Below are positions 1,535-41,532 of a stretch of 41,532 nucleotides of DNA, piece by piece. Source of the DNA: Thermoguttaceae bacterium. GTDB lineage: Bacteria; Planctomycetota; Planctomycetia; Pirellulales; Thermoguttaceae. The translations under genes and the position numbers were made by a program. The DNA lies in NCBI GenBank assembly GCA_028694795.1, contig JAQVKF010000008.1:1-41532 (forward strand), written 5' to 3'. Position 1 is the first letter of the stretch. Every line of letters starts with the position of its first letter. The notes under the pieces were generated by a model. The model saw only the letters and a program-made list of their open reading frames with translations, was not told the DNA's origin and did not search any database.

Positions 1535-1540
1535 ACCATA

Positions 1541-2749: not shown

Positions 2750-2758
2750 ATGATATTC

Positions 2759-4057: not shown

Positions 4058-4066
4058 GATATTCCT

Positions 4067-5201: not shown

Positions 5202-5202
5202 T

Positions 5203-6306: not shown

Positions 6307-6519
6307 GTGACGAAATTCCCTTATGCTTGACGAGGTTGGGTTGAAAATAGACGAATGGAAACGTGGTCGAAGGCAATTTTCCAACCAAAAACACCTCTCG
6401 TAAAATCAAATTTCATGGGTATGATCGCCGCATATCCACGCTGGGCCAGTTCCTATCCGCCTTTTGGGAGGCTGTGCCTACGGTTAAACGACCTTGTAAA
6501 AACCATTCGTCGAGGTCAC

Positions 6520-8191: not shown

Positions 8192-9223
8192 TCAATATGG
8201 AAGTGCCGTCTCACCGCCACCCATCGTGCCCGACGCGCCCCATACCCCGTACTTGCTTCCCCCCTTTGCCACCGTCGCGTTCGCACTGTCATCGCCCGCG
8301 TCAATGGTATTCGAAACAAATCGAGTACTTCCGTCGAACATGGAGACATTGACGCCACCAAAATGATAACTCGACGCGTTGATGAGAGGCCGGGTCGTTT
8401 CGTCACCCTGTGTGCAAGAAGCGGTATTCGGAGGCAAAATCGTCAAAAATCGCGTCCTGGTCATCCGAGCGTCGTACCATTTTGCGCTCAGCCACTCATG
8501 GTTCGCATGCGCAAGTGATTCGGGCATTTCAGATAAATTTTGGGCGCAATCGGCGGGAATAGCCTTGGATTCCGTTGCATTCCAGTCCGTGAAGACGCTC
8601 GCGTTTTGCCTTGGTTGCGCCATGGCCCTGCCCGTCGCAATCCGTGATTCCGCAAACGCTACGGTATTACTCGTCCCGTCAGTGACTTGAGCTATGCTTC
8701 CGTAAAACGGCTTGGACGCATCTGGAGTCGCGGCAAAAGAGTTCCTTGGTTTCCACTTCGGATCATTCCGGTCCGCATCGGAAAAAACTTCCACGCGATC
8801 GCCCGAACAGGCGTGATAGCTGATCGCCGTGGGTACCGCCTGAGCGGTTGCGTCACTCGGACATGTTAAGCGAAATGTACTGGATGACATCTCCGCGGGA
8901 TCCAGTTTGTCGATGGTGTCCAATTTGGACATTTTCGCCGTAATTTGCTCATAAGCCGCCTTCTGTTCTATGTACGGAAACAGTGGCAGAAACGCACTCT
9001 GACCCTGGACACCTACCCCCGCGGGAAATCGGTTGTTGGTATCATGGTAATTATGGCTCGCGAGAATCCATTGACGCAGCTGGTTCGCACACTGTGAACG
9101 TCGCGCGGCCTCACGTGCCGCTTGCACCGCCGGTAATAACAGAGCGATTAAAATCGCGATGAGCGCAATGGACATGGCCATATCGGCTCCGGAAAAACCT
9201 CGTCGTTTCCAAATACTTCTCAT
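8192..9223 (-). CDS. DUF1559-family prepilin-like protein, atypical N-terminus
   Basis: DUF1559 proteins are a large planctomycete family with a pilin-type N-terminal helix and a globular outer domain; their role is poorly known. Here the helix [16 protein letters not shown] and the hallmark [11 protein letters not shown] are intact, followed by [12 protein letters not shown] and the C-terminal signature [12 protein letters not shown]. The usual GFTLVELLV processing motif is replaced by [11 protein letters not shown], leaving Asp where Glu+5 normally sits. The track start at 9265 is extended; ATG at 9223 ([10 protein letters not shown]) has an excellent AAGGAG seven bases upstream and gives 343 residues. 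It stands alone, downstream of an orphan response regulator on the same strand, 279 bp away. No terminator is obvious after it. Confidence 0.88.
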
Positions 9224-9502
9224 GAGACATCTCCTTGAAAAAGTGTCTAACATATAGGAATCCATTTCGGTACCACGCCGGCTTCCAATATCCCTCGGAA
9301 GTTATCTATCTCATTTCGTTTGAAAATGTGACACATTCGAACTTGACCACAAGCGATTTTGTCGAAAAAATCTCGCATAAAAACGCAAAATCAAATGAAA
9401 TAGGCATTATTTTCTATGAAATTCCGCTTTCATTCCATCCTAACGGAAGGATCCGTTCCATAAAAGTCGCACTCGCGATTTCTCTGCTAGGATTTTTGGT
9501 TT

Positions 9503-23717: not shown

Positions 23718-24680
23718 GGTCATATTCCTTACATTCCTTGTATCCACCTATTCCAATCGTGACGTGCACGCACCCCGACGACGAATACAGTGTCCATTCG
23801 TTTACGGAGTTCAATGGAATAAACGGTAAAATCATCGACATACGATGGGGTGGACACCTTGCGGCCGCATTCCAAATGGGACCGTTAGTGTCCATTCCAC
23901 TCGTTCTCTTTTTCGGTTTCCGACACCAATCCTGACGCATCCTTGCAAAGATTCGGTCACCTCTCAGAGACGAAATCTCCTCCGCACGGGAGCGATCATT
24001 GGTGGAACAGATTCTTTATCGGTTAGAATGATAACGAACTTGAGGTTTGTATTGTTTTTCATGATAAAATCAAATGGGTTGCTTTGGCTGTGTAGATAAA
24101 ATGATCAATCCAAAAACGTCCGATATTTGGAACGGAGGGGGATTTCGCGTAAAAAATTTTTGCCGGAGGTGTTTACGGAGGTTTCTTAGAAGTATATGAT
24201 AGGACAGAGGGGATTTTGCGCTCAATGGTCAGGGGTATCACGCGTCGATAAGTGATTCGTGATGGTCGTGGGACGTTTCCTAGGCATTGTGGGGGCAAAG
24301 GACGCCGCGAATCCGATTCCAAGAGCATAACGAGTCGCTCAACTTTTCTGCGAGCTTTTCGTTTGGAGATTCGCCCTCGTCGGTCGTCGATGGCCGGCCT
24401 TTGGGAAGCAGTATTTTCCGTATGTTTTGAAATTTGAACCAGTAAGGCAGAAACGTTGCAGGCGTTTGGGGCGTATCGGCAGGATTCGTCGGGCGTTCGA
24501 TCGGTTCGGCCGTGATATCCCTTGGGATATTCGTTTTTCGCGCATTCGAAGTTTGATCATCGTCCGTGTTTTTATGGAAGAGTTCCGGACGTTTTTCGGG
24601 ATTTCGAAGAAGCGAAACATCCATCGTGGGCCGTTTCTGTTTTGTGCATCACTTCAGGATCCAGGATAAAAGGACAGCGT
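23718..24680. other. Long divergent intergenic region, nothing clearly coding
   Basis: The 963 bases separate the minus-strand ExeA-like operon from the plus-strand pseudopilin cluster and must hold both promoters. The longest ORF (24280-24624, minus, 114 residues) lacks a domain, a Shine-Dalgarno or a credible composition, and I do not call it. Between 24133 and 24180 CGGAGG occurs three times around an AAAAAATTTTT tract, possibly a curved-DNA or binding-site cluster. No clear terminator, tRNA or promoter pair was recognised. Confidence 0.4.
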
Positions 24681-26012
24681 ATGCCGATCTTCCAGTTCGA
24701 AGCCCGGGACGCAACCGGACAGGAAATCAAGAATACGATTGAGGCGGCAACCGAGGAGGAAGCTCACGCCACAATACGTCAAATGGGATATTTTGTGACG
24801 AAGATATCCGTCAAGAAATCTCGTTCGACGGCGGATAAAAAGAAGGCGGTCGGTCGCAAGAAGACCTTTGCGCTGGGAGGCATCAAATCGAAGGTATTGA
24901 CGACATTCACCCGCCAACTTTCGATTTTGCAGGACGCGGGTTTAACGATTCTGCGTAGTCTGCGTATTCTGGAGCAGCAATCGAAACCGGGGGCGTTAAA
25001 GAACGCTCTCATCGATATTTGTGACGACATTGAGGGTGGTTCGACATTGTCAGAGGCGATGGCGAAGCAGCCGAAGAATTTTAGTCGATTATTTGTGAAC
25101 ATGATCAAAGCGGGTGAAGCGGGTGGTGCGTTGGAGGTGATTCTTCAGCGACTCGCCGATTTTCAAGAGAGTTCGGAGTCGTTGAAGCGTAAGGTGAAGG
25201 GCGCGTTGATCTACCCGGTGTCGGTGGTGACCTTTGCGACGGGTATTTTGGTCTTCATTATGTGGAAGATCGTGCCGGAGTTTGAGAAAATTTTCTCGAA
25301 CTTTGGTTTGAAACTGCCCGCGATGACGTTGCTATTGACGAAGGGGTCTTTTTTCGTATTGAACTATTGGTTCTTGATACCGGGGATTCCGTTTTCGATC
25401 TGGTTATTTATCAAACTAGTTAGGAAATTTGCGCCGGGCAGGTATGGGTGGGATTTATTCCTGCTGAAGATGCCGATTTTCGGTCAATTGGTAGAAAAGA
25501 ACATTTGTGCGCGAACCATGCGAACGTTGGGTACGTTGGTAGCTTCTGGTGTGCCGATTTTGGAGGCGATGAACATTACGAAGGAGACGAGTAACAACGC
25601 CGTTTTTGAGTTAATGTATCAGAAGGTATTGGAGGCGATTCGGGAAGGTGAACCGATTGCGGGGCCGTTGAAGCAGCATTCGTATACATCGTTTCATCCG
25701 GTGGCGTTATTTTTCTGGTTCGCGTTTATCGGCGGTCCGATTGGTGCGTTGCTGTACATGACGAGAATGCGGGCACGCATTGTGGACGACATGGTGGTCA
25801 ACATGATCGACGTGGGTGAGGAGACGGGTGAGTTGGACAAGATGCTCTACAAAGTCGCTGATACTTACGATGAAGAGGTGGCGGTATTGACCGAAGGTTT
25901 GACGAAGTTGATGGAACCACTCATGATTATCGTTTTGGGTGGTATGGTTGGTTTCATTGTGATTGCGTTGTTCCTTCCGTTGGTGGACCTGATTCAGAAC
26001 CTGTCGAAGTAG
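24681..26012 (+). CDS. PilC/GspF-type inner-membrane platform protein
   Basis: GspF/PilC sits in the inner membrane under a type II secretion or type IV pilus machine and couples the ATPase to pilin extrusion. The 443-residue protein has the N-terminal FQFEARDATGQEI, a first T2SSF domain (TRQLSILQDAGLTILRSL, GEAGGALEVIL, membrane helix near 178-198) and a second one (ARTMRTLGTLVASGVPILEAM, VGEETGELDKML, terminal helix MIIVLGGMVGFIVIALFLP). Between residues 340 and 370 an extra hydrophobic stretch (VALFFWFAFIGGPIGALLYM) interrupts the second domain. The track start is over-extended; ATG at 24681 follows AAAAGGACAGCGT. No assembly ATPase gene is adjacent, which is unusual for this family. Confidence 0.92.
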   Translation: MPIFQFEARDATGQEIKNTIEAATEEEAHATIRQMGYFVTKISVKKSRSTADKKKAVGRKKTFALGGIKSKVLTTFTRQLSILQDAGLTILRSLRILEQQSKPGALKNALIDICDDIEGGSTLSEAMAKQPKNFSRLFVNMIKAGEAGGALEVILQRLADFQESSESLKRKVKGALIYPVSVVTFATGILVFIMWKIVPEFEKIFSNFGLKLPAMTLLLTKGSFFVLNYWFLIPGIPFSIWLFIKLVRKFAPGRYGWDLFLLKMPIFGQLVEKNICARTMRTLGTLVASGVPILEAMNITKETSNNAVFELMYQKVLEAIREGEPIAGPLKQHSYTSFHPVALFFWFAFIGGPIGALLYMTRMRARIVDDMVVNMIDVGEETGELDKMLYKVADTYDEEVAVLTEGLTKLMEPLMIIVLGGMVGFIVIALFLPLVDLIQNLSK

Positions 26013-26324: not shown

Positions 26325-27242
26325 ATGAATCATAATACGAAGGGACGCTCGGCGTTTACGCTGGTGGAGTTATTGGTGGTGATCACGATCATCGGGATGC
26401 TGGCGGCGTTGATATCGGTAGCGGCGTCGATGGCGATGGGTGCTGCGCGTCGCAGTGCGATTAAGATGGAAATGACGCAGCTTTCCGTGGCGTTGGAGAA
26501 TTACAAGACGAAGTATGGCGAATATCCGCCGGACGGAACGGACACGGCAGCGGTAATTCGCCATTTGCGCAAAGCGTTTCCAAAAATGATGGATCCACCG
26601 AAGATGGACGCGACGAACACCTATGTGTTGTTGCCGTTCAAGTGTGGTCGTGGAGCCCATTCCGCTTTTGATGAAGTCCCTGTCACACCGGCGACGGCGT
26701 TGGTTCTATTTTTAGGTGGTAATTTATCGAAGAATCCGTTGAATCCGCTTTCGACATCTGGTGATCGAGTGGATGCGTTTTACGAATTCAAAGAGGATCA
26801 GCTGATCGAAGTCGCAGGGGGACCGCAGTACTTTCCATCTGGTTTGGAGCGAGATGAGGTCGCGCCGTTTGTCTATTTCAAAGCGCGTTTGACGAACGAT
26901 GGTGGTGCGTATTTTAATCGTGATAGTAAAGGCAATGCGATTCCGCTTTGTTGGCCGTTGGATTTGACGACGACCCCGCCGGTGGGTTTTGCGGTACCAT
27001 ATGCCGACAGCACCAAAAGCGATCCTGATCCGGCGAACTTAGAGGGGTCGAAATGGCGGGAGGCGACGAAGTACCAGATTGTGACCGCCGGCTTGGATGG
27101 TTTGTTCAGTGATCCGACGTTAGCGGGTGGCGACGTGTCGGTACGTGGCAGTAAGACGACGAACTTCGGTTGGAGCGAGGCAGATTACGATAATCTGACG
27201 AACTTTGCGGAAGGTACGATAGGCGACGAGTTGGAACAGTAG
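26325..27242 (+). CDS. GspG-like major pseudopilin
   Basis: The 305-residue protein has a class III leader (MNHNTKGRSA) and the helix FTLVELLVVITIIGMLAALISVAASMA, with Glu+5 intact. The residue before the cleavage site is Ala instead of the usual Gly. The next part, MTQLSVALENYKTKYGEYPPDG, is the typical GspG start of the globular domain, and YQIVTAGLDGLFSDP near the end resembles the GspG 'SAGPDG' calcium-site motif. It is about twice as long as proteobacterial GspG because of a large middle insertion. Probably the main subunit of a pseudopilus or pilus built on the upstream PilC-like protein. Confidence 0.88.
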   Translation: MNHNTKGRSAFTLVELLVVITIIGMLAALISVAASMAMGAARRSAIKMEMTQLSVALENYKTKYGEYPPDGTDTAAVIRHLRKAFPKMMDPPKMDATNTYVLLPFKCGRGAHSAFDEVPVTPATALVLFLGGNLSKNPLNPLSTSGDRVDAFYEFKEDQLIEVAGGPQYFPSGLERDEVAPFVYFKARLTNDGGAYFNRDSKGNAIPLCWPLDLTTTPPVGFAVPYADSTKSDPDPANLEGSKWREATKYQIVTAGLDGLFSDPTLAGGDVSVRGSKTTNFGWSEADYDNLTNFAEGTIGDELEQ

Positions 27243-27530
27243 TGTGCAGCCGCTTCGGACAGCCTAGCGGTCGATCCAATCACCTAGGGTTGCCCGATAG
27301 AGTATCCATGGTAGAGAGATTCGAGTCCATGACAGGGCGGATGTGCGATGAGTGAACCTGGCGGCGGATGCGACGTGGGGAATGATTCACGAGCGGATTG
27401 TCGCTCGCCGCGAATGCTCTTCGGCTTGTTTTTGTCGATTGAGTGAACTGGACGTGTATAGAATAGGGGTGGAGAAAAAAGACATCTTTTCCTCGCCACC
27501 TTATCATCATAAGACAGAGGAGACCGTTTG

Positions 27531-28895
27531 ATGCGACGGGATCATCGAAAACCTACTATATTCACGACAGGCCGCATGGGATTGCTGGTGAGGCGATCCG
27601 ATTTTGGTTTTTGTCCGGGTATGACGCTGGTGGAATTACTGGTGGCGATAGCGATTCTGGCGATCTTAGCGTCGGTTGGAATGTTAGCGGTCGAAGGCGG
27701 TCGTGAGGCGGCGCGTCGAACGGCGACGCAAGCGACCGTCGTAAAAATTGGCGATATACTCACGCAGCGATATGAATCGTATCTGGAGCGTAAGTTGCCG
27801 TTATCGTCGAATCAGATCGACCAATTGGCGTTGAACGCGAACTTCTGGACGACCTATTGGGGGGGCTTGTCGAATACAGGTTATTGGAAGGTAAGCAGTG
27901 GCATTCCAAATGGTTTATCGTTGACAATTTCGACGTTGACACCGATGATGACACAGGGTTATTCGCTGACGCCGCAGAACATCAAGCAGTATGTGTTGAA
28001 TAACATTTCGCAAGATCCGGCGGTAAAACTTGCGGCGATCAACATGACGTTATCGAAGATGCGAGCGCTTGTGCGGTTGACGGTGATGCGGGATACGATT
28101 CGTCTAGAGATGCCGGAGAAGCCGGCGGATTTGTGGATGATGAATTCGGATGGAACCCGCACGAACCAGCGGAATAATCCGGTCTGGGCGAAGTATGGCG
28201 TTTCACAACTCACGACGCCGGCGATGGAGTATATGTGGTCGATGACCGATGTGAAGGATCTAAATCAAGCGGATATTCTTTATTTGGTGGTGATGCAATC
28301 GTCTCCGGACGTACTTACCCAATTTAGTGAATCGGAAGTGGATGATATTGGTTTTGCGGAGGATGGAACGCCGAATCCGAACGATTTGAAGGAGTTTGTG
28401 GATGCGTGGGGGTTGCCGATGATCTTTTTCCGTTGGGCACCGGGTTATTCGCTGTCGGAGATCCAGTCGAGCGCGTCAACGGAAAGCGGTTTGGATGGTG
28501 ATTGGAGTGCGATGACGGATGGCAAGATGCGGTCGATTGAAATCACGAATAAGGACGGAACGAAAACGTCTGTTCAGGTGGGTCCTTACGAGCAAGTTCG
28601 TTGGTTGTTACACGAAAACGACCCCGATCCGTTAGACGTTTCGAATATGGATCCCTATGCGTGGCGTACAGTTCCGATTGTGGTTTCGGCCGGTCCGGAC
28701 GGCGAATTTGGGATGTTTTTCGATCAGTTAGAGACGTGGACGAACCAGACGTTCATACTTCAGCAACCGGATTCAGGTGGCGATCAGACGCTTTTTGGTT
28801 CACCGATGATCAAAGAGGGTGGGCTATTCAAGCATAGTCTGGACCAAGTGAGCGATAACGTGACGAATCACCAGCTATCGGAGGTCCAGCAATGA
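27531..28895 (+). CDS. Prepilin-like protein (pseudopilin)
   Basis: The 454-residue protein has an unusually long basic leader of about 30 residues (MRRDHRKP...FGFCPG) and then the type IV pilin-like motif MTLVELLVAIAILAILASVGMLAVEGGREAARR. The remainder is a large globular domain without a named family; VSAGPDGEFGMFF near residue 384-396 is a GspG-type Ca-site-like motif. The track begins at TTG 27528; ATG 27531 with AGAGGAG upstream is the better start. Its stop overlaps the next gene's start (ATGA), so translation is coupled. Confidence 0.87.
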   Translation: MRRDHRKPTIFTTGRMGLLVRRSDFGFCPGMTLVELLVAIAILAILASVGMLAVEGGREAARRTATQATVVKIGDILTQRYESYLERKLPLSSNQIDQLALNANFWTTYWGGLSNTGYWKVSSGIPNGLSLTISTLTPMMTQGYSLTPQNIKQYVLNNISQDPAVKLAAINMTLSKMRALVRLTVMRDTIRLEMPEKPADLWMMNSDGTRTNQRNNPVWAKYGVSQLTTPAMEYMWSMTDVKDLNQADILYLVVMQSSPDVLTQFSESEVDDIGFAEDGTPNPNDLKEFVDAWGLPMIFFRWAPGYSLSEIQSSASTESGLDGDWSAMTDGKMRSIEITNKDGTKTSVQVGPYEQVRWLLHENDPDPLDVSNMDPYAWRTVPIVVSAGPDGEFGMFFDQLETWTNQTFILQQPDSGGDQTLFGSPMIKEGGLFKHSLDQVSDNVTNHQLSEVQQ

Positions 28896-30178
28896 TATGT
28901 CGAGTTTCGTTTAGTCGAGCGTGGCTCGGTTCGTTGGCGAGCAGCTGTCCGGTTCGTGATCGATGGTCGTTGTGTGGGAGGTTGGCGAGTGATCGTCGTG
29001 GAATGACGCTTGTGGAACTTCTGGTGGTGATCGCGATTTTGGCGGTGTTGGCTGGGTTCATGATACCGCGGATTCCTGGGATGGTGCAAGGTCAGCGGAC
29101 ACGTGAGGCGGCGCGAACGGTGAACGTGGGAATTAGCATGGCACGCGGTCGCGCGATGGAATTAAATCGTCCGTGTGGGGTACGAATCGAGAACAATAAT
29201 GGTCAGACGCTGCTTCGGATCGTGGAAACACGTAAAGGGTTTTCCGGTTATACGGAGAATGCGACAGGTACGGTGACGGTGGCGAGTGCGACGCAGTTGA
29301 CATTGAGTGTGAATGAGGATCTTTCGGGTGTTGCGTCAAAGGGCGACCGTCTGGTACTTGGAGGTCGTCGTCCGGAATTGGAACTACCGTCAGACCCCAC
29401 GTTTGACAGCGCAACGGGTTACAGTACGGTGACGGCAAACCTGATTGCGGATGGCAGCAGTAATACCCTTCCGTGGACGGTGGGATCTGTATTTACGACG
29501 AGTTATTTAGTCAAGCCGAATCCGGAGCAGCCGAAATTTTCGAGCGGCTCGCGTCGTCCGACGGTGCTTCCGGCACAGACAACGGTCGATTTGGGCTGGT
29601 CAGGTGAGGGACGATCGTGTTGGGACGGGGATCCCTTTCGTGTGAAGGATCCGACGAAAACGTTATCGGAGGGTGGCTATCTGGATGATAATGGTCGCCT
29701 AGTCAGTCCGGTACCGGATGCGGTGACGATTCTGTTTGAGCCGGATGGGGCAATCTCACGTGTGGTAAAGGAATATCCGCGTTACACCGAGGGCGTGACC
29801 GCAGCGGTGGTGGTGGACACGAAGAGTGCGGAGCCGAATCAGCCGATTTATCTTTTGGTAGGCCGTCCGGATCAAATTGATTCTGAGTTATCCATACCGG
29901 GAATTCAAGTGCTTTCGGATGCGAAAGAAGCCAAAACGAATGTGATTGATAAAACGAACCTAGCGGATTACGATTGTCTGTGGGTTTCGGTGAATCATCG
30001 CAGTGGTCGAACGGTGACGAGCAGCAATTTAGCGCAAGGGTACGACGCCCAAATGGTGTACGAGAAGGAAAGCAATTGTCCATCGGAAGCCAGTGCGAAG
30101 TTGGGCTATGTGATTGATCGTGCTTTGTATGAATCGCGAACGTTAGCCCGTAGTGGCGATAGTGTGAGTACACGATAG
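28892..30178 (+). CDS. Prepilin-like protein, GspH-like
   Basis: The 428-residue protein starts with a 37-residue leader ending DRRG and the pilin helix MTLVELLVVIAILAVLAGFMIPRIPGMV. The following region, REAARTVNVGISMARGRAMELNRPCGVRIE, resembles GspH/FimT minor pseudopilins, where a run of small residues precedes a beta-rich domain. The start overlaps the previous stop by four bases. The leader is much longer than typical class III leaders (5-25 residues), so an internal start is possible, though no Met or strong Shine-Dalgarno lies close to RRG. Confidence 0.85.
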   Translation: MICRVSFSRAWLGSLASSCPVRDRWSLCGRLASDRRGMTLVELLVVIAILAVLAGFMIPRIPGMVQGQRTREAARTVNVGISMARGRAMELNRPCGVRIENNNGQTLLRIVETRKGFSGYTENATGTVTVASATQLTLSVNEDLSGVASKGDRLVLGGRRPELELPSDPTFDSATGYSTVTANLIADGSSNTLPWTVGSVFTTSYLVKPNPEQPKFSSGSRRPTVLPAQTTVDLGWSGEGRSCWDGDPFRVKDPTKTLSEGGYLDDNGRLVSPVPDAVTILFEPDGAISRVVKEYPRYTEGVTAAVVVDTKSAEPNQPIYLLVGRPDQIDSELSIPGIQVLSDAKEAKTNVIDKTNLADYDCLWVSVNHRSGRTVTSSNLAQGYDAQMVYEKESNCPSEASAKLGYVIDRALYESRTLARSGDSVSTR

Positions 30179-30292: not shown

Positions 30293-30336
30293 CTGCGTGA
30301 GGGGTGAAACATAACGAGATCAGGAGTTTCTGGCTC

Positions 30337-31548
30337 ATGAATATACGAACATTCCATCGACGTAGCCGACACGGTTTTACCCTTTTGGAGGTGTTGACGG
30401 CGATATTTGTATTAACGTTTGGTCTTTTAGGGATCACGGCGATGATGCAGATTGGCGGTTATCGAGCGTGGCAGGCGACGCGACAAGCGAAGGCATCGTA
30501 TTTGGCAGAGCAGGCGTTTGCCGATTTGCAGGTACGAGGCACATTGAAGAACGCGGTGGAATCAGCGGGCGGTGTGTTGAATGGTCTGGAGGTTCGAGGT
30601 TTCGTGAATCGTTCGAGCATGGTTTACGATCCATTTGGCGAGCGAGCGGTGATAGACAAGAGCGATGTGCGTCGATTCTCGGTAGCATCGAATCCGGACG
30701 CGGCGTCGCCGAGGTTGTCGTCCTACTTTAGCGTTCCGACCAGTACGGGTTGGCGAGAAATGATTGCGGGCGATTACGGAACGGGGAATTTTTACGATCC
30801 GCTTCGTGTCCAACCGACGGTGTCACGGGATGATTTGGTGTGGAATGACAAGAACAGTGACCGTCGCCCGGTAGCGGAGTACTATACGGCGACATTGGAT
30901 TTGGAGCCGTTAGTGTCGGCGAATGGGACACTCAATGTCAACGCGGTGATCCAAGCGTCCGAAGGACGTTGGAGCTGGCTAGCGACGATTCAACCGTTGG
31001 GCGGTCGTGTGAACGTCGATATGAATGGCGATAACATCGTGGAAAATTTCGCGTATCGGACGAACACCTATGAGGTTTCAGTCGCGGTCTATGAAACTCG
31101 TTCGTTTGCGGCGGAACGTCAGTTTGATGTGGAGCACGACAGTACGACGGACAGCGGGATAAATGCGTTTACGGAAGCGATGTACCGCAAAAGTTTCCGA
31201 TTGAATCCTGTCGGGACGAGTGCTTCGGAGCGAGCGATTTTGAAGCCCGGTCACTGGGTGGCACTGGTTGGCAAACCGGTTCCTGGGATAAACACGTCCG
31301 TTGGCAATCAAGATTGGCGTGTCGTTTGGTTCCAGGTGGTGAGTTCGCAGCCGCTGGCCAATGCGATGTATGACGTTCAATTAGAAGGTCCAGATCTCGT
31401 AAGTTTGACGACGACATACAACGCGACGACGAAGAGTTATCAGCAACTGTATACACCGCAGATATTTTTGCCAACGAGTGACGTATATCTCATTACCGAT
31501 CCGGATATTGTGGGGGTGGTGACGCGAACGCTCCAGGTCACCGACTAA
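30337..31548 (+). CDS. PilV/GspI-like prepilin protein
   Basis: The protein (403 residues from the chosen start) has a short basic leader (MNIRTFHRRSRHG) and the motif FTLLEVLTAIFVLTFGLLGITAMMQIGG, the pattern of PilV/GspI minor pilins, followed by KASYLAEQAFADLQVRG, which matches the family. The larger C-terminal domain is not assigned. The track uses GTG at 30304; ATG at 30337 with AGGAG ten bases upstream gives a normal leader. Minor pilins of this type start fibre assembly at the tip. Confidence 0.87.
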   Translation: MNIRTFHRRSRHGFTLLEVLTAIFVLTFGLLGITAMMQIGGYRAWQATRQAKASYLAEQAFADLQVRGTLKNAVESAGGVLNGLEVRGFVNRSSMVYDPFGERAVIDKSDVRRFSVASNPDAASPRLSSYFSVPTSTGWREMIAGDYGTGNFYDPLRVQPTVSRDDLVWNDKNSDRRPVAEYYTATLDLEPLVSANGTLNVNAVIQASEGRWSWLATIQPLGGRVNVDMNGDNIVENFAYRTNTYEVSVAVYETRSFAAERQFDVEHDSTTDSGINAFTEAMYRKSFRLNPVGTSASERAILKPGHWVALVGKPVPGINTSVGNQDWRVVWFQVVSSQPLANAMYDVQLEGPDLVSLTTTYNATTKSYQQLYTPQIFLPTSDVYLITDPDIVGVVTRTLQVTD

Positions 31549-31813: not shown

Positions 31814-34800
31814 ATGACGACTATCCGCATGAACAAAAGAGTCCGTATGAGCCGTATTCGAGGCCGACGGGATCGTCGTGGCATGTTGTTGATGATAGTG
31901 TTAGGTCTTTTGGCGTTATTTGCGATGATTGGCGTATCGTTTGTGTTGATCACGTCCGATGCGGATCGCAGCGCGAAGGCGACCTTATCGGTGACGGAGA
32001 AGCGTCAATCCTCGACGGAGCTTTTGGGCGAGGCGGCGATGCGAGTGTTCCGCGGCACGAACGCCGGGGCGTGGGATGATCGTCCGATTGGAACGCACAA
32101 TCTGCTAACAGACATGTACGGTTCGCCATCTGCCAGCAATATGATCAATGCGAGCAATGAGGCGTTTCAGCTGCAAATCGTCCTAGGTACGGATGGTAAT
32201 TATCTTTTGAATGCGGATAGTTGGACGAATATTCTCGCCAAGTTGTATGTGGAAGAACAATCGCGTTTACAGACGATGGTGGTGAGTGGCGAACTTACGA
32301 GTACTCTGATGCAGCGATATCTTCAGGAGTACGAAGCGAATCTTCCATATCGTCTAATGAGCAGTTATTTAGGTCTTTCGAATGGCGATATCTATCAAGT
32401 GGTGAGCATGGCAGGTAATGCGCCATTACTGAGGGCGATTTATTTGATGCCGGAGACCCGCAAGGTTTTTAACGCTGGCAACGGCATGGCTTATGAGAAG
32501 CTGACCTATTCGCTTTATAAGCCGTTTGGCGGAACAGGTCTGACCCAGGTGACAGCGCCGTTTGCGTGGACGACGGATAAAGATGGCAAAGATACGAGTC
32601 AAGCGGTGGCCAAGACGGCGATTCCGTTCGAGATGTTGCCTAACATGCCCGTTTCGGCGTATGGTACGAACCGAGCGCAGGGCGGCGATTATAACGAAGA
32701 GTACGATTCTCCCGATATGCAAAACATGTTTTTGGCATACGCAGTAACGGATGATGGTACCCCGAACAAAGCACAGCGTGTGGTGTTACCGTCGTACTAT
32801 CGTCCCGACTTGCTGGCGTATTGGTATCGTCGCGCGATGATGGATACGGACGATGTGGGGAGTGGTTCGACGGTGAATTTTGTACCATTGTATTACGGGG
32901 CGGCTAAGACGTGGACAATGCAGGCGATTGATTGGAACACGATTTACGCTTGTGTGAGCGAGTTGGTTGGCAATAGTGCGCCGAATGTAGCCACAGGAAA
33001 CACGACGGACAAATGGGCTCAGCGTGTGTTGTGTTTGGAGCAGATCCGTGGCTATCACGTTGGTTCGCACACCGAGACGGAAAGTGTGGAATGGGCGCAT
33101 TTCTTCGCGGTACGTCGATTCGTGGAGTGGCTTTCATTCCGACCGGCGGATTCAACCTTTACGGGCAGCAATCCGAACTTTGGCCTCAAATATGTCGCCG
33201 CCGATGGTACATTCCAGACGGGGCCGTGGGATGTGGATAACGATGGCGACGGTACGCCGGACAGCGTTTGGGTGGATTTGGGGCTTCCGATGCAGATGGG
33301 TCCGGACGGTCGTCTGGTGCAGCCACTCGCGGCGGTGTTGTGTCTCGATATGGATGGTCGTTTGAATGTGAACGCGCACGGTCACGATATGCAACTTGTG
33401 TCTAACGTGATCAATCCTGGTGGCGGTCCGCTTGGTCGTGGTTTTGGTCCAGCGGAGATTGCGCTCGGTAATGTGGTGACGGCGAGCGGTTTAGATCGAC
33501 TTTTACATGGCGATACGACACAGGGAATCGAAGGACGGTTGGGTGAATGGGGTTCATCCATTACGCCGGTGCGCGGTGGAACGACGCTTGCGTACAATGG
33601 GGCTTACGTGTTGACGAATCAAAACGTACCGACGCCGGCGGATGGTTCTATGGCGTATTCGAACTTTGCGGCGTGGGGACAGTACTACCCGCAGATGTTG
33701 GCGACCGGTACGAAGAGTGGAGCAACAGTTTGGGACTTTTATTACGGCATGTTGCCGGACACGCTCGGTTCGCTTTACATTCAGACCGATGTGACAGGTC
33801 CGTATGGGGCGGTGCAGGGTGATATGGCGAGCAATTTTGGCTTAGCGGTCATGAGAAACAATCCCGCGGCGCTTTATGCGGCGAATACGAATTATTGGGT
33901 TGATTTGACGACGCCGAAACGAAATTCGTCCGGCGGCAAGGCTCAGATCGATAATCCGTTTACGCCTGCCGATTTGGAGCGTATTTTGCGGATGAGCGAC
34001 GCGGATCGCAGTACGCTCACGGCGCGGTTAACGACGCTTTTGAATAGCGGGGACAATAATGCGTTGTATCGTCAGATATTGACGACGGACAGTTATCACG
34101 TTCCGGCGACGCCAGCGGTGGAATTGCCACAGTATCAAGTGGAGGTCAGTGGAACGACGAGCACTTATACATCGAAGGAAGAACTGGATCTTCCGTCGCG
34201 TTACGGGAGTGTTACCGAGGCGTTGACGCGGTATTTGCGGATGATGGAAAGCCAAATGTCCGGAACAGGCGTTTATTCGGCGGCGGTGGACTCATATGAC
34301 AATACAGTGTCTGTGGATACGATGATTGCTGGCGAGTTTTACCAGGGGCTTCCAATCAATCCGAATCGTCGATTTACGGATGAGCAATACTTGCTGGATA
34401 ATCCCGGTACGGCGATTCCACCGGCGGACGCGATTACGGCGGGACGGACGGAACGTCAGGCGATGGCACGTCAGTTGTACGTGCTGGCAAAATATTTGAC
34501 ACGACACTGGAAGCTGAATATTGATGCAGTCGCTGATTTGGCGAAACTTCCTGGGTACAAAAAGATTGCCACGTTGAATGTTCCGGAAGGCAAAACGCGA
34601 GAGGATGCGTTAGTGTCGTTATGGCTAGCGCAGTGGGCGGTGAACGTAGTTGATTTCCGCGATCGTGATTCGGCGATGACTCTGTTCTGGTTCGATCCGT
34701 TTCCGGACGCGCAGACGGGTGGTTCGAGTGACCAGCTTGGTTGGACGAAAGATAAGGCGAATTTAATACTGGTTTTTGGATGTGAGCGACCGGACCTTTT

Positions 34801-37702
34801 GATTACGGAAACGCTGGCGACCCATGCGCGACGTACGGAAGATACGGCGGAAGATGCGACGGGTAAAATGACGACGTCGCAAAAGGATCCGGACGACGAT
34901 TTCGATCAGAAGCGTCGTCCGATTGGTTCGCTTTTTGTGGAGGTTTACAATCCATGGGGAGCGGGCGAGGCGGCTCCGTCGCCAGAGTTGCGACCATCGC
35001 AAGATTGGGCGAGTGCCGAAACGGATGTTCGGAGTGTGTCGCTCAATATGGTGAACGGGAATGGCGATCCGGTGTGGCGCATGGGTTTCCGAAAGGGGTT
35101 GCCGAATGACGAGGCGTTCGAGTTGGACGATCCACTGGAGTCGGGCAAGGAATTCGAGCGAACGTTGTACTTTGCGGAACCGAAGAGCGTGGTGACGGGT
35201 TCAACGACGGGAACTGATGGTGAGACCGTCGATACGCTTCGGTATATGGCGTCGAGTGCGGCGAATCAAGATTTGAATAGCAATAACATGTGGGTTCGTC
35301 CGGGCCAGGCGGTGGTGATTGGTCCTTACGATGCGGAGTGGAAAACTTGTACACCGCTTGCGAAGGGAAATAACACCTCCGATTGGTTTGACTGGGACGA
35401 GACTCGGTACATTGATCTGTATGACACGCAGCACGGGACGAAAAGTTTTTCGGTCTGGTACAACTACTTTGGTGATCGCAGTAAGGATGCGAGCAAGTTA
35501 TACGATCTGAATGGTCGTGACCCGTTCAACATGTCGAATGTGTTGCCGATCGCGGTGGATCGTGTGGATATGCGAGAAGCGAGTGCGACCAGTGCGAGTT
35601 GGAAGGTGACGGGTGGGGAAAATCCGCGTTTTAGCGTTTCTGAACCGATCCGCTCGGACGCAAGTTTTACCGATTACTACGGCGTAAAATGGGGGGCCGA
35701 TCCGCTTGGAACCGATTCGAACGATGATTATTATTATACGGCGGTTCTAAACGACCCAATCCAAAGCAGTAATGAGGAGATCCAGAAGAACGGTTTGGCC
35801 GGACAGCAGACTGCGAATTTGGAGATGCCGAAGGGCAGCTATAACGATCGTTTGGCGTATTTACAGCGATTAGCGGATCCGCGGTTACCGTATAATCCAA
35901 ATCCGAACGACACCGATTTGGCGTACAATCCGTACGTGACGATAGACAAGGCACCGATTGATTTGGTGACGTACAATGGTTGGAATCCAGGGAATGAGGG
36001 GGATGAGAGTAAGGAATTAATTCCGGATGGTTCGAAGCGTAAGATGGCCTCCGAGAATAAGGTCGTTTTCCGATCACGTGAGCGAGGTTATTTCCGGCAG
36101 AATGTGGACGACAACCAGAATATCCAGACCGATTTGTGGGCACAAGAGCCGATATTGGATCAGATTCAGTTAGGTCGTGAGGGTACCGATGCGGCGGGTC
36201 AAACGTTACGGAAGTTGACGGCGTTTACCGAGCAACAGTCGAGTCCGGTGGCGGAGGCGTTTGCGGATGGTTCTGGAGATGCGTTGTCTGGGATCGAGTT
36301 TACGCCGTATTTGTCCCACTCGTTAGGTGGGGCGAACCTCTGTTTTTGGGGTAAGACGAACGCTGGTGGTACGGTAGGTCAACCGACGATGCGTCCATTG
36401 GATTTGGCGACCGGTACGCTTGCCGTTCCGAGTAATGGTCCGTTTTCGGTTTTGGCGTGGAATAATTCGCCGTATAACAGTCGGATGGAGTTGATGCAAG
36501 TGCCGGTAACGAGCATGTCTCGGTTCCTCGCGGCCCCGATTTATCGGATCGAAGTGGATAATACGGGTAAGGTTACCAATGTGCCGAAGCTGTTAGAGCC
36601 GGGGTACTCGTTGGTGACGGTAGACGATGCGTCTGAATCGCCATTGGCGGTGACCGGTGATGAGCCTGAAGTTTGGCCATATGCGGGTTACGACAATGTG
36701 AAGTTGACGGGTGCGAATTCGGATGATCAAGGGGATGGGCGTTGGTATCCGCATTTGATGAACTTCTTCGATTCGTCGGCGACATATTTGGAGACGGCGG
36801 GTTCGGAGACGAAGCGAGTGGCTTATGCCTCGAATTTTGGCCAGATATTGGACTTTGTGGACACCCCATCAGCTTATACCGGTGCGTCGGCGTGGCGGCG
36901 TGAGCCAGGCAATGTCAATGTAAATACGATTCCGACAGTGGTGAATGGTGTGAATCGAGACTCGGCGGTCTGGCCCGCACTTGCCGGAACGAAAGCGGCG
37001 AGAGATTTTGAGGTGTTAGATCGTAGTCGTCAATACTTACCGGATGGGGGTAAATCGCATTGGTTGCTTTCGACCGATACGACGACTGGCATGCCGGCGT
37101 TGGCGTTTGACGGAACAACACCGACGATCTTCGCGAATCCTGTCCGTGCGATGTCCACGTTTGAGTCAGCGTTCAATGTGGACTATGATCCAAGTGTGGC
37201 TCCGACGGGTACCAAGGACGACGATTACCGGAATTGGTCGCCGAGCGTTTTGAACGCGGCGCAGCAGGCGAAAGGTGGTGCGGGGGCGGTGTATGTACAA
37301 CCGCAGCCGGCGTATGTGGGGTTATTGCGACCGAAATCAGGTCCAGACATGGGGACAGGCGAGAATGGAGCCGCGAGTCCGGTATTGGCGTATTATTCGG
37401 TGGGTGATTCCGATGTGACTCGTAACCCGCGTTTCCGTTACGAACAGTTGCAGCGTATGGCGAATCTGACGACAGATCGTTCGAGTGTGTACGCGGTCTG
37501 GGTAACGCTGGGTTACTTTGAGGTGACAGGGCAAAACTCCGGTAAACCGATGTTAGGCGAAGAGGTGGAGAGTTCCAACGGAATTCCGAATCGTCCGCGA
37601 GCGTTTTATATGTTCGACCGATCCGTTCCGACGGGCTATCAGCCCGGCTCGGACATTGGTACGGATCGTGCGGTGTTATTGCGTCGTGTGATTAACGAAT
37701 AG
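31814..37702 (+). CDS. Giant PilX/GspK-like pilin-type protein (1962 residues)
   Basis: An arginine-rich leader (RIRGRRDRRG) precedes the helix MLLMIVLGLLALFAMIGVSFVL; Glu+5 is absent, as in GspK and PilX. The rest is an exceptionally long extracytoplasmic chain. Near 472-489 is VDNDGDGTPDSVWVDLG, an Asp-rich calcium-binding-like loop, soon followed by LDMDGRLNVNAHG (about 513-525), and near 1693 EPGNVNVNTIPT, blocks I associate with large planctomycete PilX-like proteins. Canonical GspK is about 320 residues. The chain has few cysteines and no visible second membrane helix. The track start is over-extended; ATG at 31814 with AGAGG seven bases upstream fits. A tip or adhesive component of the pseudopilus is a reasonable guess, not shown. 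Confidence 0.88.
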   Translation: MTTIRMNKRVRMSRIRGRRDRRGMLLMIVLGLLALFAMIGVSFVLITSDADRSAKATLSVTEKRQSSTELLGEAAMRVFRGTNAGAWDDRPIGTHNLLTDMYGSPSASNMINASNEAFQLQIVLGTDGNYLLNADSWTNILAKLYVEEQSRLQTMVVSGELTSTLMQRYLQEYEANLPYRLMSSYLGLSNGDIYQVVSMAGNAPLLRAIYLMPETRKVFNAGNGMAYEKLTYSLYKPFGGTGLTQVTAPFAWTTDKDGKDTSQAVAKTAIPFEMLPNMPVSAYGTNRAQGGDYNEEYDSPDMQNMFLAYAVTDDGTPNKAQRVVLPSYYRPDLLAYWYRRAMMDTDDVGSGSTVNFVPLYYGAAKTWTMQAIDWNTIYACVSELVGNSAPNVATGNTTDKWAQRVLCLEQIRGYHVGSHTETESVEWAHFFAVRRFVEWLSFRPADSTFTGSNPNFGLKYVAADGTFQTGPWDVDNDGDGTPDSVWVDLGLPMQMGPDGRLVQPLAAVLCLDMDGRLNVNAHGHDMQLVSNVINPGGGPLGRGFGPAEIALGNVVTASGLDRLLHGDTTQGIEGRLGEWGSSITPVRGGTTLAYNGAYVLTNQNVPTPADGSMAYSNFAAWGQYYPQMLATGTKSGATVWDFYYGMLPDTLGSLYIQTDVTGPYGAVQGDMASNFGLAVMRNNPAALYAANTNYWVDLTTPKRNSSGGKAQIDNPFTPADLERILRMSDADRSTLTARLTTLLNSGDNNALYRQILTTDSYHVPATPAVELPQYQVEVSGTTSTYTSKEELDLPSRYGSVTEALTRYLRMMESQMSGTGVYSAAVDSYDNTVSVDTMIAGEFYQGLPINPNRRFTDEQYLLDNPGTAIPPADAITAGRTERQAMARQLYVLAKYLTRHWKLNIDAVADLAKLPGYKKIATLNVPEGKTREDALVSLWLAQWAVNVVDFRDRDSAMTLFWFDPFPDAQTGGSSDQLGWTKDKANLILVFGCERPDLLITETLATHARRTEDTAEDATGKMTTSQKDPDDDFDQKRRPIGSLFVEVYNPWGAGEAAPSPELRPSQDWASAETDVRSVSLNMVNGNGDPVWRMGFRKGLPNDEAFELDDPLESGKEFERTLYFAEPKSVVTGSTTGTDGETVDTLRYMASSAANQDLNSNNMWVRPGQAVVIGPYDAEWKTCTPLAKGNNTSDWFDWDETRYIDLYDTQHGTKSFSVWYNYFGDRSKDASKLYDLNGRDPFNMSNVLPIAVDRVDMREASATSASWKVTGGENPRFSVSEPIRSDASFTDYYGVKWGADPLGTDSNDDYYYTAVLNDPIQSSNEEIQKNGLAGQQTANLEMPKGSYNDRLAYLQRLADPRLPYNPNPNDTDLAYNPYVTIDKAPIDLVTYNGWNPGNEGDESKELIPDGSKRKMASENKVVFRSRERGYFRQNVDDNQNIQTDLWAQEPILDQIQLGREGTDAAGQTLRKLTAFTEQQSSPVAEAFADGSGDALSGIEFTPYLSHSLGGANLCFWGKTNAGGTVGQPTMRPLDLATGTLAVPSNGPFSVLAWNNSPYNSRMELMQVPVTSMSRFLAAPIYRIEVDNTGKVTNVPKLLEPGYSLVTVDDASESPLAVTGDEPEVWPYAGYDNVKLTGANSDDQGDGRWYPHLMNFFDSSATYLETAGSETKRVAYASNFGQILDFVDTPSAYTGASAWRREPGNVNVNTIPTVVNGVNRDSAVWPALAGTKAARDFEVLDRSRQYLPDGGKSHWLLSTDTTTGMPALAFDGTTPTIFANPVRAMSTFESAFNVDYDPSVAPTGTKDDDYRNWSPSVLNAAQQAKGGAGAVYVQPQPAYVGLLRPKSGPDMGTGENGAASPVLAYYSVGDSDVTRNPRFRYEQLQRMANLTTDRSSVYAVWVTLGYFEVTGQNSGKPMLGEEVESSNGIPNRPRAFYMFDRSVPTGYQPGSDIGTDRAVLLRRVINE

Positions 37703-37923: not shown

Positions 37924-39435
37924 ATGAGACAGACACAACGATCCGGTTATACCTTGATAGAGCTTTTGCTTGCGATGGCGTTAGGATTAATGATTCTGGC
38001 GGCGGTGATTCAAATGTTCTCGGTGATGGGTAACACGATCAACAGTTCTCGTTCGTCTTTGGAGATGAACGAGGAGTTGTGTCGGACAACGGCTCTTTTG
38101 CGGAGTGATTTGGAAGGTTTGACGGTGGTCGCTGATCCGCCGCGAGCACCAGAGAACGGCGAGGGTTATCTGCAAATTATCGAAGGGCCGGTCGGGGTGG
38201 CGACGGATCCAACGACGGTTTCGTGGGACACGGACGGCGAGGTCGAGCGTCCGGACACGACGCTTGGTGACATCGACGACATTTTGTTGTTTACGAGTCG
38301 TAAGGAGCAGGGGTTCCGAGCGAAGAAAAATGATACCGTCCAGAAGTTTGACGCGGCGGAGGTCGCTTGGTTTGTTCGTGGCAACAAATTGTATCGCAAG
38401 GTGTTGGCGATTGATACTGATCCGACGATGAAGGCGGAGCCTGCGTCAAACGCGTTGAATTTTTTTCGCGATAATGATATATCGGTGAATATGGTCACCG
38501 ATTCGAGCGGCAACGTTTTTTACGAACGCAACACGCTTGCGTCGCTGACTCGTCCAGACTGTCGCTATGGGGCGTGTTGGGCGGGTGGCTTTGTGAACAA
38601 TGCGGCACCACCATCGTTTCCGGGCAGCCCCTATGGTTTATGGCATTTTGCATATCCACAGATGGCTGGTTCGAAAAGTGTTTGGACGGAGGGAAGTCTT
38701 CCAACGTTAGGTCTTCCGCTCGCGGCGGAGATTTATTATGGGGGGAAGACGAACGCCGGTCCGATCTGGAAGACGGTGACATCGGGTGATGTGGGCGCGA
38801 TGAACGGCAATTTTGATCCCTGGCGTAATCCGATGCCGTGGAATGGTGTGAATGTGAACGATAATGTGTTGATGATGGTCAACGGAGCGTTGGCGTCCGC
38901 GTACTCGAACAGTGATACCTTGAGTGACTATGTGGTGGATCGTAGCCGTGTGGGTGAGGATTTAGTGCTAACGAATGTGTTGAGTTTTGACGTGAAGGTA
39001 TGGGATCCAAACGCCCCAGTGCGTGGCGTGGAGGTAACGCTTCCGATCAATCCATCGCTTCGCGGTTGGGCTGCGAATACGAATCCGATAGGTTTGGGGG
39101 CGTATGTTGATTTGGGATATTTGCCAAGTGTGAAGACGGATACACTTCGTACCAATTTTTCGGATGTTCGTCTTCCGTCGCGGAACGATGCGGTGGCGGC
39201 TGTCTACAATGTGGATACTGCCATCACAGGGCGGCCGCGTATATATGATACGTGGGCAACGCACTACGAGGCGGAGTTGAATGCGGCGACAGGTTTAACG
39301 CCTGGCGGTGTATGGAAATGTTCGGCACCGTATATGAGCAAATTGCGCGGTATCCAGGTGACGTTGCGAGTGTTCGATCCGGATTCGCGTCAGATTCGTC
39401 AAGTGACGTTGGAGCATCGTTTGCGTACCAGCTGA
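37924..39435 (+). CDS. PilW/GspJ-like prepilin protein
   Basis: The 503-residue protein has the shortest leader of the set (MRQTQRSG) and the helix YTLIELLLAMALGLMILAAVIQMFSVMG, with Glu+5, followed by NSSRSSLEMNEELCRTTALLRSDLEGLT, the PilW/GspJ pattern of a helix bearing paired residues. The C-terminus (VTLRVFDPDSRQIRQVTLEHRL) also resembles GspJ. AAGGGATTGAGTTT precedes the ATG. It closes the pseudopilin cluster; the terminator at 39502 follows. With PilV/GspI- and GspK-like partners it may form the tip complex, by analogy with type II secretion. Confidence 0.88.
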   Translation: MRQTQRSGYTLIELLLAMALGLMILAAVIQMFSVMGNTINSSRSSLEMNEELCRTTALLRSDLEGLTVVADPPRAPENGEGYLQIIEGPVGVATDPTTVSWDTDGEVERPDTTLGDIDDILLFTSRKEQGFRAKKNDTVQKFDAAEVAWFVRGNKLYRKVLAIDTDPTMKAEPASNALNFFRDNDISVNMVTDSSGNVFYERNTLASLTRPDCRYGACWAGGFVNNAAPPSFPGSPYGLWHFAYPQMAGSKSVWTEGSLPTLGLPLAAEIYYGGKTNAGPIWKTVTSGDVGAMNGNFDPWRNPMPWNGVNVNDNVLMMVNGALASAYSNSDTLSDYVVDRSRVGEDLVLTNVLSFDVKVWDPNAPVRGVEVTLPINPSLRGWAANTNPIGLGAYVDLGYLPSVKTDTLRTNFSDVRLPSRNDAVAAVYNVDTAITGRPRIYDTWATHYEAELNAATGLTPGGVWKCSAPYMSKLRGIQVTLRVFDPDSRQIRQVTLEHRLRTS

Positions 39436-39711: not shown

Positions 39712-41532
39712 ATGAAAAGTGAAGTACGGAAGACGTTTTTCTTTGTAGGCGTGGCGTTTTTTGCGGCATTATTAGCGTGGTTGGTTCAGCCGAGGGACGA
39801 TTCGTTAGCCCAGCCGATCGACATGGTGGGTCAGCTGATAGTTTCCGAGCGAGGCGACAGCGCGTCGTTGCTGGACGCGACGGGGATGGAGATCGTTCGT
39901 TGGGACGAGGTGGATCAGAAGCCTTTTCGTTTTGTAGTCCAAGAGGATTCTGAGGGGAAGTGGGTCATTCCATCCCATTCGGACTATCCAGCGGATGCGA
40001 AGGAGCAATTTGGTAAGGCGTCATCGGCATTGACGGGGGTGAAGATATTGTCGGTCGCGAGTGATTCCCCGTCGGAGCACAAGGCGTTTGGTTTGTTGGA
40101 TCCCCTTTCGGGAGCAGTGCAGGGTGGCAAGGCAACTGCGGAGCAGATTGGTACACGGATTACGTTCCGCAACAAGTCCGGTCAACCAATTGTTGATTTG
40201 ATTGTCGGTCACGAAGACAAGGAGCAAGAAGGAACACGGTATGTGCGTTATGCGGATAAGGACACGATTTACCAGATCGAGTTGGATCTTTCGCAGTTTT
40301 CGACCTCGTTTAGCGATTGGATCGAGAAAGATTTATTGCAAGCGGATGGCATGCTAGGGTTGCGGAATGTCGCGATTGAGGATTACGTGATTGAAGGGGA
40401 TCGGAAGGTGAATCGGGGAGTGATCCTATTGGATTACGACGATCGGGCCGATCCGCGATGGCAATTAAAGGACGCGGTTCGTTACGAGGGCGGCAAGCCA
40501 CAACCGGTCTCGTTAGCGGCGGACGAGCAACTTTCGGTGAGTGTGCTGGATAATCTTCGAGCGGCGTTGGGCGAGTTAAGTATCGTGGATGTGCGCCGCA
40601 AATCGGATAGCGTTCGCAAATTGATCAATGCGGAACCGGTCTCGGAATCGGAACAGACGCAAATGCAGTTAGACATGGCGTCGTGTGGTTATTTTATTGC
40701 CGATCTTCCTGACGTTGGTCTTTCGTTAGTGGCGAATGAGGGATTGATCCAAGCGAGCCTGAGCGATGGAGTGGATTACGTTTTGCAGTTTGGAGCGTTG
40801 ACGAAGGCGGCGGGCGAGAATCTAGACGCGATGAAAAAGAGCGATGCGGCGGATCCCGCATCAAACGAAGCGCCGGCCTCGGAAGAGAAAAAGGTCGGGC
40901 AAAATCGTTTTCTGTTTGTTCGAGTGGGATTTAACCAGGAAACGATTAAGAAGCCGGAGTTGAAACCATTGCCGACAGCTCCGGAAGCTCCGGCGGCGGA
41001 TGCGGACGAAGCGGCCAAAACGGCATACAACGCAGCGTTGACGGCGTTCCAATCGGAGAAGGAGAAGATCGAATCGGAGAATGCGGCGAACCAGCAAGAA
41101 TATGACGATGCCATTGCCGCCGGTCAGGAGAAGGCGAAGCGGTTACAAGCGAGATTTGCGGATTGGTACTACGTCGTATCGGATGCCGAATTCCAGAAAA
41201 TCCATTTAACCTGGAATCAGGTGGTGGAAAAGAAATCGGCGAATCCGGAGGGAGCGGCGGCTGGATTGCCAGGCATGCCACCAATGCCGATGGAACGCAA
41301 ACCAGACCTTGATTCCAACGTGATGGATTTCGGCAAGATGATCGAGGCGGCGGAGGCGAAAGCAGCAGAACCCGCGGCAGAACCCACTCCAGCTCCAGAG
41401 ACCCCGGCGGCAGAACCCGCAGCAGAACCCACTCCAGTTCCAGAGACCCCAGCGACGGAACCCGTAGCAGAGCCCATTCCAGTTCCAGAGACCCCAGCGG
41501 CAGAACCTGCTCCAGCTCCAGAGACCCCGGCG
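39712..41532 (+). CDS. DUF4340-like membrane-anchored protein, partial (C-terminus outside window)
   Basis: This frame is absent from the ORF track because it runs off the right edge; I translated it by hand. ATG at 39712 gives MKSEVRKTFFFVGVAFFAALLAWLV, one N-terminal membrane helix, then an extracytoplasmic region with HKAFGLLDPLSG, DLIVGHEDKEQEGTRYVRYA, and FSDWIEKDLLQ, the pattern of DUF4340 proteins. In many bacteria these go with GldF/GldG-type ABC transporters, which would be expected downstream. An Ala/Glu-rich coiled stretch (about 420-470) and a Pro-Ala-Glu repeat tail follow. GGAAG lies ten bases before the ATG. It is separated from the pseudopilin cluster by a strong terminator, so it is probably a different transcription unit. 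Confidence 0.85.
   Translation, partial: MKSEVRKTFFFVGVAFFAALLAWLVQPRDDSLAQPIDMVGQLIVSERGDSASLLDATGMEIVRWDEVDQKPFRFVVQEDSEGKWVIPSHSDYPADAKEQFGKASSALTGVKILSVASDSPSEHKAFGLLDPLSGAVQGGKATAEQIGTRITFRNKSGQPIVDLIVGHEDKEQEGTRYVRYADKDTIYQIELDLSQFSTSFSDWIEKDLLQADGMLGLRNVAIEDYVIEGDRKVNRGVILLDYDDRADPRWQLKDAVRYEGGKPQPVSLAADEQLSVSVLDNLRAALGELSIVDVRRKSDSVRKLINAEPVSESEQTQMQLDMASCGYFIADLPDVGLSLVANEGLIQASLSDGVDYVLQFGALTKAAGENLDAMKKSDAADPASNEAPASEEKKVGQNRFLFVRVGFNQETIKKPELKPLPTAPEAPAADADEAAKTAYNAALTAFQSEKEKIESENAANQQEYDDAIAAGQEKAKRLQARFADWYYVVSDAEFQKIHLTWNQVVEKKSANPEGAAAGLPGMPPMPMERKPDLDSNVMDFGKMIEAAEAKAAEPAAEPTPAPETPAAEPAAEPTPVPETPATEPVAEPIPVPETPAAEPAPAPETPA
41365..41532 (+). repeat. 45-bp in-frame tandem repeat encoding a Pro-Ala-Glu tail
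   Basis: Three 45-base units (41365-41409, 41410-41454, 41455-41499) and a shortened fourth encode AEPAAEPTPAPETPA-type repeats. Differences between units are mostly single-base changes. The array continues to the edge and may go on outside the window. Such tails are usually extended, possibly wall-spanning, linkers. Confidence 0.8.

Follow-up and report, generated by a model that had tools for sequence, protein, structure and literature searches.

A probable giant GspK-type pseudopilin in the main operon for type IV filaments in Planctomycetia

The giant gene lies in a pseudopilin operon

We analysed a stretch of 41,532 nucleotides (the window) from a Thermoguttaceae bacterium (assembly GCA_028694795.1, contig JAQVKF010000008.1), focusing on a giant open reading frame on the + strand. 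This frame lies among the following genes.

24522–26012, + strand: GspF/PilC platform protein (PF00482, E 8e-58; TIGR02120, E 2e-105)
26325–27242, + strand: GspG-like pseudopilin (N_methyl; TIGR01710, E 1e-10)
27528–28895, + strand: pseudopilin x, no subtype given (N_methyl, TIGR02532)
28892–30178, + strand: GspH-like pseudopilin (TIGR01708, E 2e-8), also matching Verru_Chthon cassette D (TIGR02596, E 1e-9)
30304–31548, + strand: GspI/PilV-like pseudopilin (TIGR02523, E 2e-7)
31814–37702, + strand: probable giant GspK-type pseudopilin, 1,962 residues (open reading frame; relatives; GspK landmarks)
37924–39435, + strand: GspJ/PilW-like pseudopilin (N_methyl; weak TIGR01711), located between I and K in other orders

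The gene order in the window was F-G-x-H-I-K-J. The flanking pseudopilins matched the N_methyl model, with Glu+5 visible in those at 30304 and 37924, and the initial annotation, which had placed the giant in a pseudopilin operon, was borne out by N_methyl prepilins on both sides and GspF upstream. The frame ran without interruption from either a GTG at 31730 or an ATG at 31814 to position 37702. A purine-rich GAAGAGG lies 7 nt upstream of the ATG, so that a start at 31814, giving 1,962 residues, is reasonable. The gene was present as one copy in the host genome (G000, 3.99 Mb, 310 contigs, 89% complete).

Several other genes occupied the window. The minus strand between 19615 and 23747, divergent from gspF, encoded an XrtA/PEP-CTERM-type AAA ATPase (TIGR03015, below cut-off), a CpaE/tyrosine-kinase-like ATPase and a 494-residue protein without a family. 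Downstream of the J-like pseudopilin, a DUF4340 protein (39712–41532) with terminal Pro/Ala-rich repeats was cut by the contig end. A DUF1559 (SBP_bac_10) protein at 8192–9265 stood separate from the pseudopilin operon, and a sugar/capsule cluster at 596–7449 contained DegT aminotransferase, PseH-like acetyltransferase, ATP-grasp, AMP-ligase-like, PGA_cap and nucleotidyl transferase genes.

The giant begins like a prepilin but has no Glu+5

Two features were recognized at the N-terminus.

31814–31882, + strand: basic leader (residues 1–23) ending in RRG, where prepilin peptidase is predicted to cut after G23 (sequence; the same Gly in all 66 relatives)
31883–31996, + strand: hydrophobic N-terminal helix (residues 24–61) without Glu+5 (AF2 helix 24–61, block pLDDT mostly 60–85; hhalign to the GspK N-helix)

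The N-terminus reads MTTIRMNKRVRMSRIRGRRDRRG before the predicted cleavage point and MLLMIVLGLLALFAMIGVSFVLI after it. The leader of 23 residues is Arg-rich, the chain becomes hydrophobic after G23 with Ile at +5, and the prepilin-like junction, RRG followed by MLLMIVLGLLALF, has no Glu+5. Among the 66 aligned relatives, the Gly before the cleavage point was invariant, and position +5 was V, L, F or I, with Glu in none of them. These results confirmed the GspK-like, Glu+5-free prepilin N-terminus that had been proposed initially, in the leader ending, in the hydrophobic helix and in all 66 relatives.

The giant form is conserved across Planctomycetia

A single-protein query for related loci found no relatives; an alignment query retrieved 368. 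Among near genomes, 53 of 60 contained a relative; sampling across the order gave 173 of 197 (147 of the 160 good-quality ones), and sampling across the class Planctomycetia gave 134 of 149. The relatives included Pirellulales/Thermoguttaceae MAGs, Blastopirellula marina DSM 3645 and Lacipirellula limnantheis I41. Judging from these named relatives, the window belongs to Pirellulales, class Planctomycetia. The open frames of the relatives were mostly 1,400–3,200 residues long, and the shorter ones were often truncated at contig ends. Because frames of similar size were open in those 173 genomes of the order, the 1,962-residue frame reported at first is a real one, neither chance nor artefact. 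The giant form is conserved class-wide in Planctomycetia. In five genomes (G048, G239, G257, G261 and G265) the family reached about 2,900–3,200 residues, so that in certain lineages the inserts have expanded still further.

Across Pirellulales, the gene order was F-G-x-H-I-K, and J was detected downstream of the giant K at some loci, the window among them. Five genomes representing other orders of the class had J ahead of the giant K, and in four of these F lay upstream; this J-before-K arrangement is the classical gspFGHIJK order. Like gspK, the giant gene is last or near-last in its pseudopilin operon.

GspK landmarks are spread in order along the chain

Ordinary GspK is a pilus-tip subunit of about 300 residues. 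Beyond the N-terminal helix, the following candidate counterparts of GspK landmarks were located in the giant.

33347–33382, + strand: first GspK landmark DMDGRLNVNAHG (residues 512–523), counterpart of the GspK N-L-N motif (hhalign alternative alignment)
33944–34057, + strand: region 711–748 (PFTPADLERILR...), perhaps a further GspK landmark (weak hhalign match with the 66-sequence alignment)
34625–34687, + strand: LAQWAVNVVDFRDRDSAMTLF (residues 938–958), counterpart of the GspK DWIDxD region (profile alignment; highly conserved)
36467–36526, + strand: SPYNSRMELMQVPVTSMSRF (residues 1552–1571), counterpart of GspK ELrxVxG (profile alignment)
36899–36928, + strand: REPGNVNVNT (residues 1696–1705), counterpart of GspK INVNTA (profile alignment; P1698, G1699, N1702, N1704 and T1705 invariant)
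37442–37699, + strand: C-terminal helix and strands (residues 1877–1962, NLTTDRSSVYAVWVTLGYFEV...), counterpart of the GspK C-terminal strands (profile alignment; helix and strands in the C-terminal AF2 model)

A 26-sequence alignment of the giants was compared by hhalign profile–profile alignment with ten planctomycete GspK proteins, all hits to the curated GspK model NF037980. The alternative alignments gave six collinear segments. The N-helix of the giant family paired with the GspK N-helix, followed by DLDGRLNLNAHG with GspK NLN, VVDFRDRD with the GspK D-rich element, RPFxSxxELMLVP with ELrxVxG, EPGxINLNT with INVNTA, and NLVTTRSNVYAVWITV, where a TTRSxVYAV motif lies, with the GspK C-terminal strands. 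Without the N-helix, the chain of five segments scored 130.1, compared with best chains of 36.6 in column shuffles (n = 60) and 104 in permutations of 45-column blocks (n = 60), which keep the motifs and break their order. The 66-sequence alignment gave a chain of 137.2 versus at most 37.2 in 50 shuffles, and the families of the other operon genes (F, G, x, H, I and J), tested likewise, reached at most 46.7.

Outside the N-helix, each single GspK match was weak, and the homology is therefore drawn from the number and order of the landmarks rather than from single matches. The curated model NF037980 did not match the window protein, its best E value among the 26 family members being 0.84, in one member, and PF03934 gave no match at the giant's locus; a curated-model match is a library criterion and not a defining biological feature of GspK. 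A PF03934 match in the host genome was rejected as a GspK, being most likely a ComEA-like helix-hairpin-helix protein. The weak single matches and the failure of the curated models would also suit a pilin N-terminus fused to an unrelated large exported protein, in which the LNxN-like motifs arose by chance and GspK homology is absent. That explanation is already disfavoured and appears very improbable, because five or six segments kept the same order with chain scores of 130–137, where shuffles gave no more than 37, block permutations no more than 104 and other operon families no more than 47, and because the gene occupies the gspK position. The collinear segments, the gspK place in the operons of other orders and the absence of Glu+5 from all 66 relatives instead support the giant as a GspK homologue along its whole chain. 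The collinear landmarks and the operon position likewise sustained the initial reading of a GspK-type tip pseudopilin, and its estimate of about six times the usual length agreed with 1,962 residues versus the 307 positions of the curated GspK model.

The giant thus shares with GspK, the T2SS minor pseudopilin of NF037980 and PF03934, an N-helix without Glu+5, two LNxN/INLNT landmarks around a DxxDxD element and an ELxxVP element, and the C-terminal strands. Unlike GspK, it is about six times longer through insertions of 130–600 residues between landmarks, it belongs to a family unrecognized by GspK models, and it carries a conserved Asp-rich DVDNDGDG loop ahead of the first landmark.

The inserted regions are conserved

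Two features stood out in the inserted regions.

33227–33277, + strand: Asp-rich loop W-DVDNDGDGTPDSVWVD / WDVDNDGDGTPDSVWVD (residues 472–488), candidate Ca2+ loop (conservation; weak Dockerin_1 matches)
34796–35332, + strand: insert with lamin-tail-domain-like motifs LLITET, SLFVEVYNP and PGQAVVIGP (residues 995–1173; three collinear matches to PF00932 sequences)

The Asp-rich loop noticed at first was present at residues 472–488, with D475 and W486 invariant in 66 sequences and D473, N476, D477, D479, G480, D483, S484 and D488 at least 90% conserved. Weak Dockerin_1 matches were found in 2 of 26 family members (best E 0.021). In the lamin-tail-like insert, the three matches were each weak, and their chain scored 63.7 versus at most 19.7 in 50 shuffles; the PF00932 model itself matched neither the giants nor any protein of the host genome. 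The motif order is suggestive of a lamin-tail-like module at about residues 995–1175, without amounting to proof.

G23, D475, W486, D512 and N520 were among the positions invariant in the 66 aligned proteins, and blocks distant from the GspK landmarks (e.g. 991–1050) were conserved as strongly as the landmarks. This conservation speaks against the idea of a rapidly changing adhesin specific to a host, and agrees with ligand binding as a conserved function or with a structural role. Pfam and NCBIfam gave only chance-level matches for the window protein and 25 aligned relatives, with no known adhesin or carbohydrate-binding family matched by the inserted regions, and a PDB sequence search with the family profile found no match.

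AF2 models were made in two pieces, both of low confidence (residues 1–1190: mean pLDDT 61, pTM 0.60; residues 770–1962: mean pLDDT 65, pTM 0.78). They showed the N-terminal helix, a beta-rich region at about 985–1390 and the C-terminal strands. Foldseek searches with these low-confidence pieces, in which the division may part strands of the pilin sheet, gave no PDB match at E ≤ 0.001, GspK included.

The operon is associated with a PilB-PilT-PilB cluster

In relatives, PilB/GspE, PilT and PilB genes lay directly upstream of F, with PilT above its curated cut-off. In the host, the PilB-PilT-PilB trio was on contig C181, away from the giant's operon; its PilT, between PilB-like frames, scored 447 bits with TIGR01420 (cut-off 319). 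A second PilT was present on contig C182, and the host carried two secretin genes. With the trio present in the host and located just ahead of F in relatives, retraction of the filament is probable. Taken with the secretins and the operon order, the trio means that the machine fits the description of a GspFGHIJK-type pilus with a retraction ATPase better than that of a plain T2SS.

On contig C48 the host encoded another GspK-like protein, 800 residues long (G000:C48, L109:4009-6411, minus strand; NF037980, E 4e-19), with no pseudopilin genes among the neighbouring frames examined. The cell may therefore have a K besides the giant.

These findings bear on a T2SS alternative, in which the filament is a periplasmic pseudopilus and the giant GspK at its tip is a scaffold or docking platform pushing planctomycete exoproteins through the secretin, not a surface adhesin. 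The GspK homology, the classical gspFGHIJK order, the secretins in the genome and inserts that are conserved rather than variable are all compatible with it. However, a PilT-type retraction ATPase sits inside the ATPase cluster, beside gspF in relatives, and the 800-residue protein on another contig, a better match to the GspK model, could serve a dedicated T2SS. We regard this alternative as doubtful, although it is the strongest of those considered.

Discussion

The reading we favour, and hold to be somewhat probable, is that the giant is a GspK-type minor (tip) pseudopilin of the main Planctomycetia type IV filament operon, enlarged by insertions to about 2,000 residues. It builds on three computed results, namely whole-chain GspK homology, gspK operon position and class-wide conservation. 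Compared with the initial annotation, what is new is that the protein is class-wide, that its size comes from insertions within the GspK plan, and that a PilT-type ATPase accompanies the machine. A class-wide protein family without a library model is now identified as a GspK homologue made about six-fold larger by internal insertion; our literature search found no paper on a giant planctomycete GspK.

Under this tip-pseudopilin reading, prepilin peptidase would cleave the giant after G23, leaving the N-terminal helix in the inner membrane. The lack of Glu+5 suggests that the giant is the first, capping subunit, which together with I and J, and probably H, would prime a filament built of G-type subunits, with PilB driving its extension and PilT its retraction, through a secretin. 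A head of 200 kDa would be too large for the filament interior, which points to a tip location, either extracellular or within the secretin vestibule. The inserts, comprising the candidate Ca2+ loop, the possible lamin-tail-like module and long loops, may form a built-in ligand-binding or docking head, with Ca2+ presumably bound at the DVDNDGDG loop.

In proteobacterial type IVa pili, a minor pilin complex with PilX displays the large tip protein PilY1, which bears a Ca2+ loop, and works together with PilT. By analogy rather than sequence, the giant's head might play the role of PilY1 riding on PilX, in one polypeptide instead of two; no PilY1 was found among the window genes scanned. The class-wide conservation of the giant form suggests a surface-contact or capture device built into the tip subunit itself, and the function as an adhesin or substrate-capture device proposed in the initial annotation is plausible.

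Crateriform structures of Planctopirus limnophila and Gemmata obscuriglobus give rise to pili-like fibres of 12 nm, to which gold-labelled dextran binds (PMC5394234). These fibres, together with the class-wide giant and its PilT, lend some weight to a more specific proposal, that the giant is a surface adhesin or macromolecule-capture head ending the planctomycete fibres, which binds polysaccharide or protein and delivers it by retraction. Against it, no carbohydrate-binding family was detected with Pfam or NCBIfam, the inserts match no known adhesin, and the literature found does not name the fibre proteins; we consider it rather unlikely. The fuller version, in which the dextran-binding fibres of the crateriform structures end in the giant GspK as their ligand-binding tip, a built-in capture head on a retractable filament that feeds macromolecules to the cell, seems more improbable still. 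Planctomycetia gain a concrete candidate for the tip of their pili-like fibres. The giant's role is testable, since cultured relatives carry it (B. marina DSM 3645 and L. limnantheis I41).

A published survey (PMC8179133) counts GspK among the modular pilins, its pilin sheet containing an inserted domain, and locates it together with I and J at the tip, where large modular pilins in general are expected to sit. As in the giant, the modular pilins PilB and PilC of S. sanguinis, CofB and ComZ carry an extra module on a likely tip-located pilin, and the ComZ module, like that of GspK, is inserted in the pilin sheet (PMC8179133). In contrast to these, the giant has about 2,000 residues, no recognized extra domain and a class-wide distribution, and it exceeds the most extreme modular pilin of that survey (860 residues; PMC8179133).

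Very large proteins with a GspK-like N-helix also occur elsewhere in the phylum, where frames in 51 of 149 genomes matched the TIGR02600 N-terminus (Verru_Chthon cassette protein A); the H-like pseudopilin of the window (28892–30178) matches protein D of the same cassette. Membership of the giant in TIGR02600 was rejected, as the model had no match at E ≤ 10 in the host genome and only the N-helix aligned to the TIGR02600-like giants. The latter, mostly 1,000–2,000 residues long, have a GspK domain at about residues 10–350 (hhalign probability 99.3, E 1e-20) and, beyond it, a long extension on the C-terminal side. Their GspK domain is thus wholly N-terminal, whereas in the window family the GspK elements appear spread over the chain, with INLNT at 1702 of 1962. 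As judged from these alignments, the two families have different architectures, so that a single phylum shows two routes by which K subunits became giant, one by insertion along the whole chain and one by C-terminal extension. The TIGR02600-like giants (L074-L093, L126 and L127) were found across Planctomycetota, many with an INVNTA motif, and several paralogues occurred per genome, e.g. at G085:C25.
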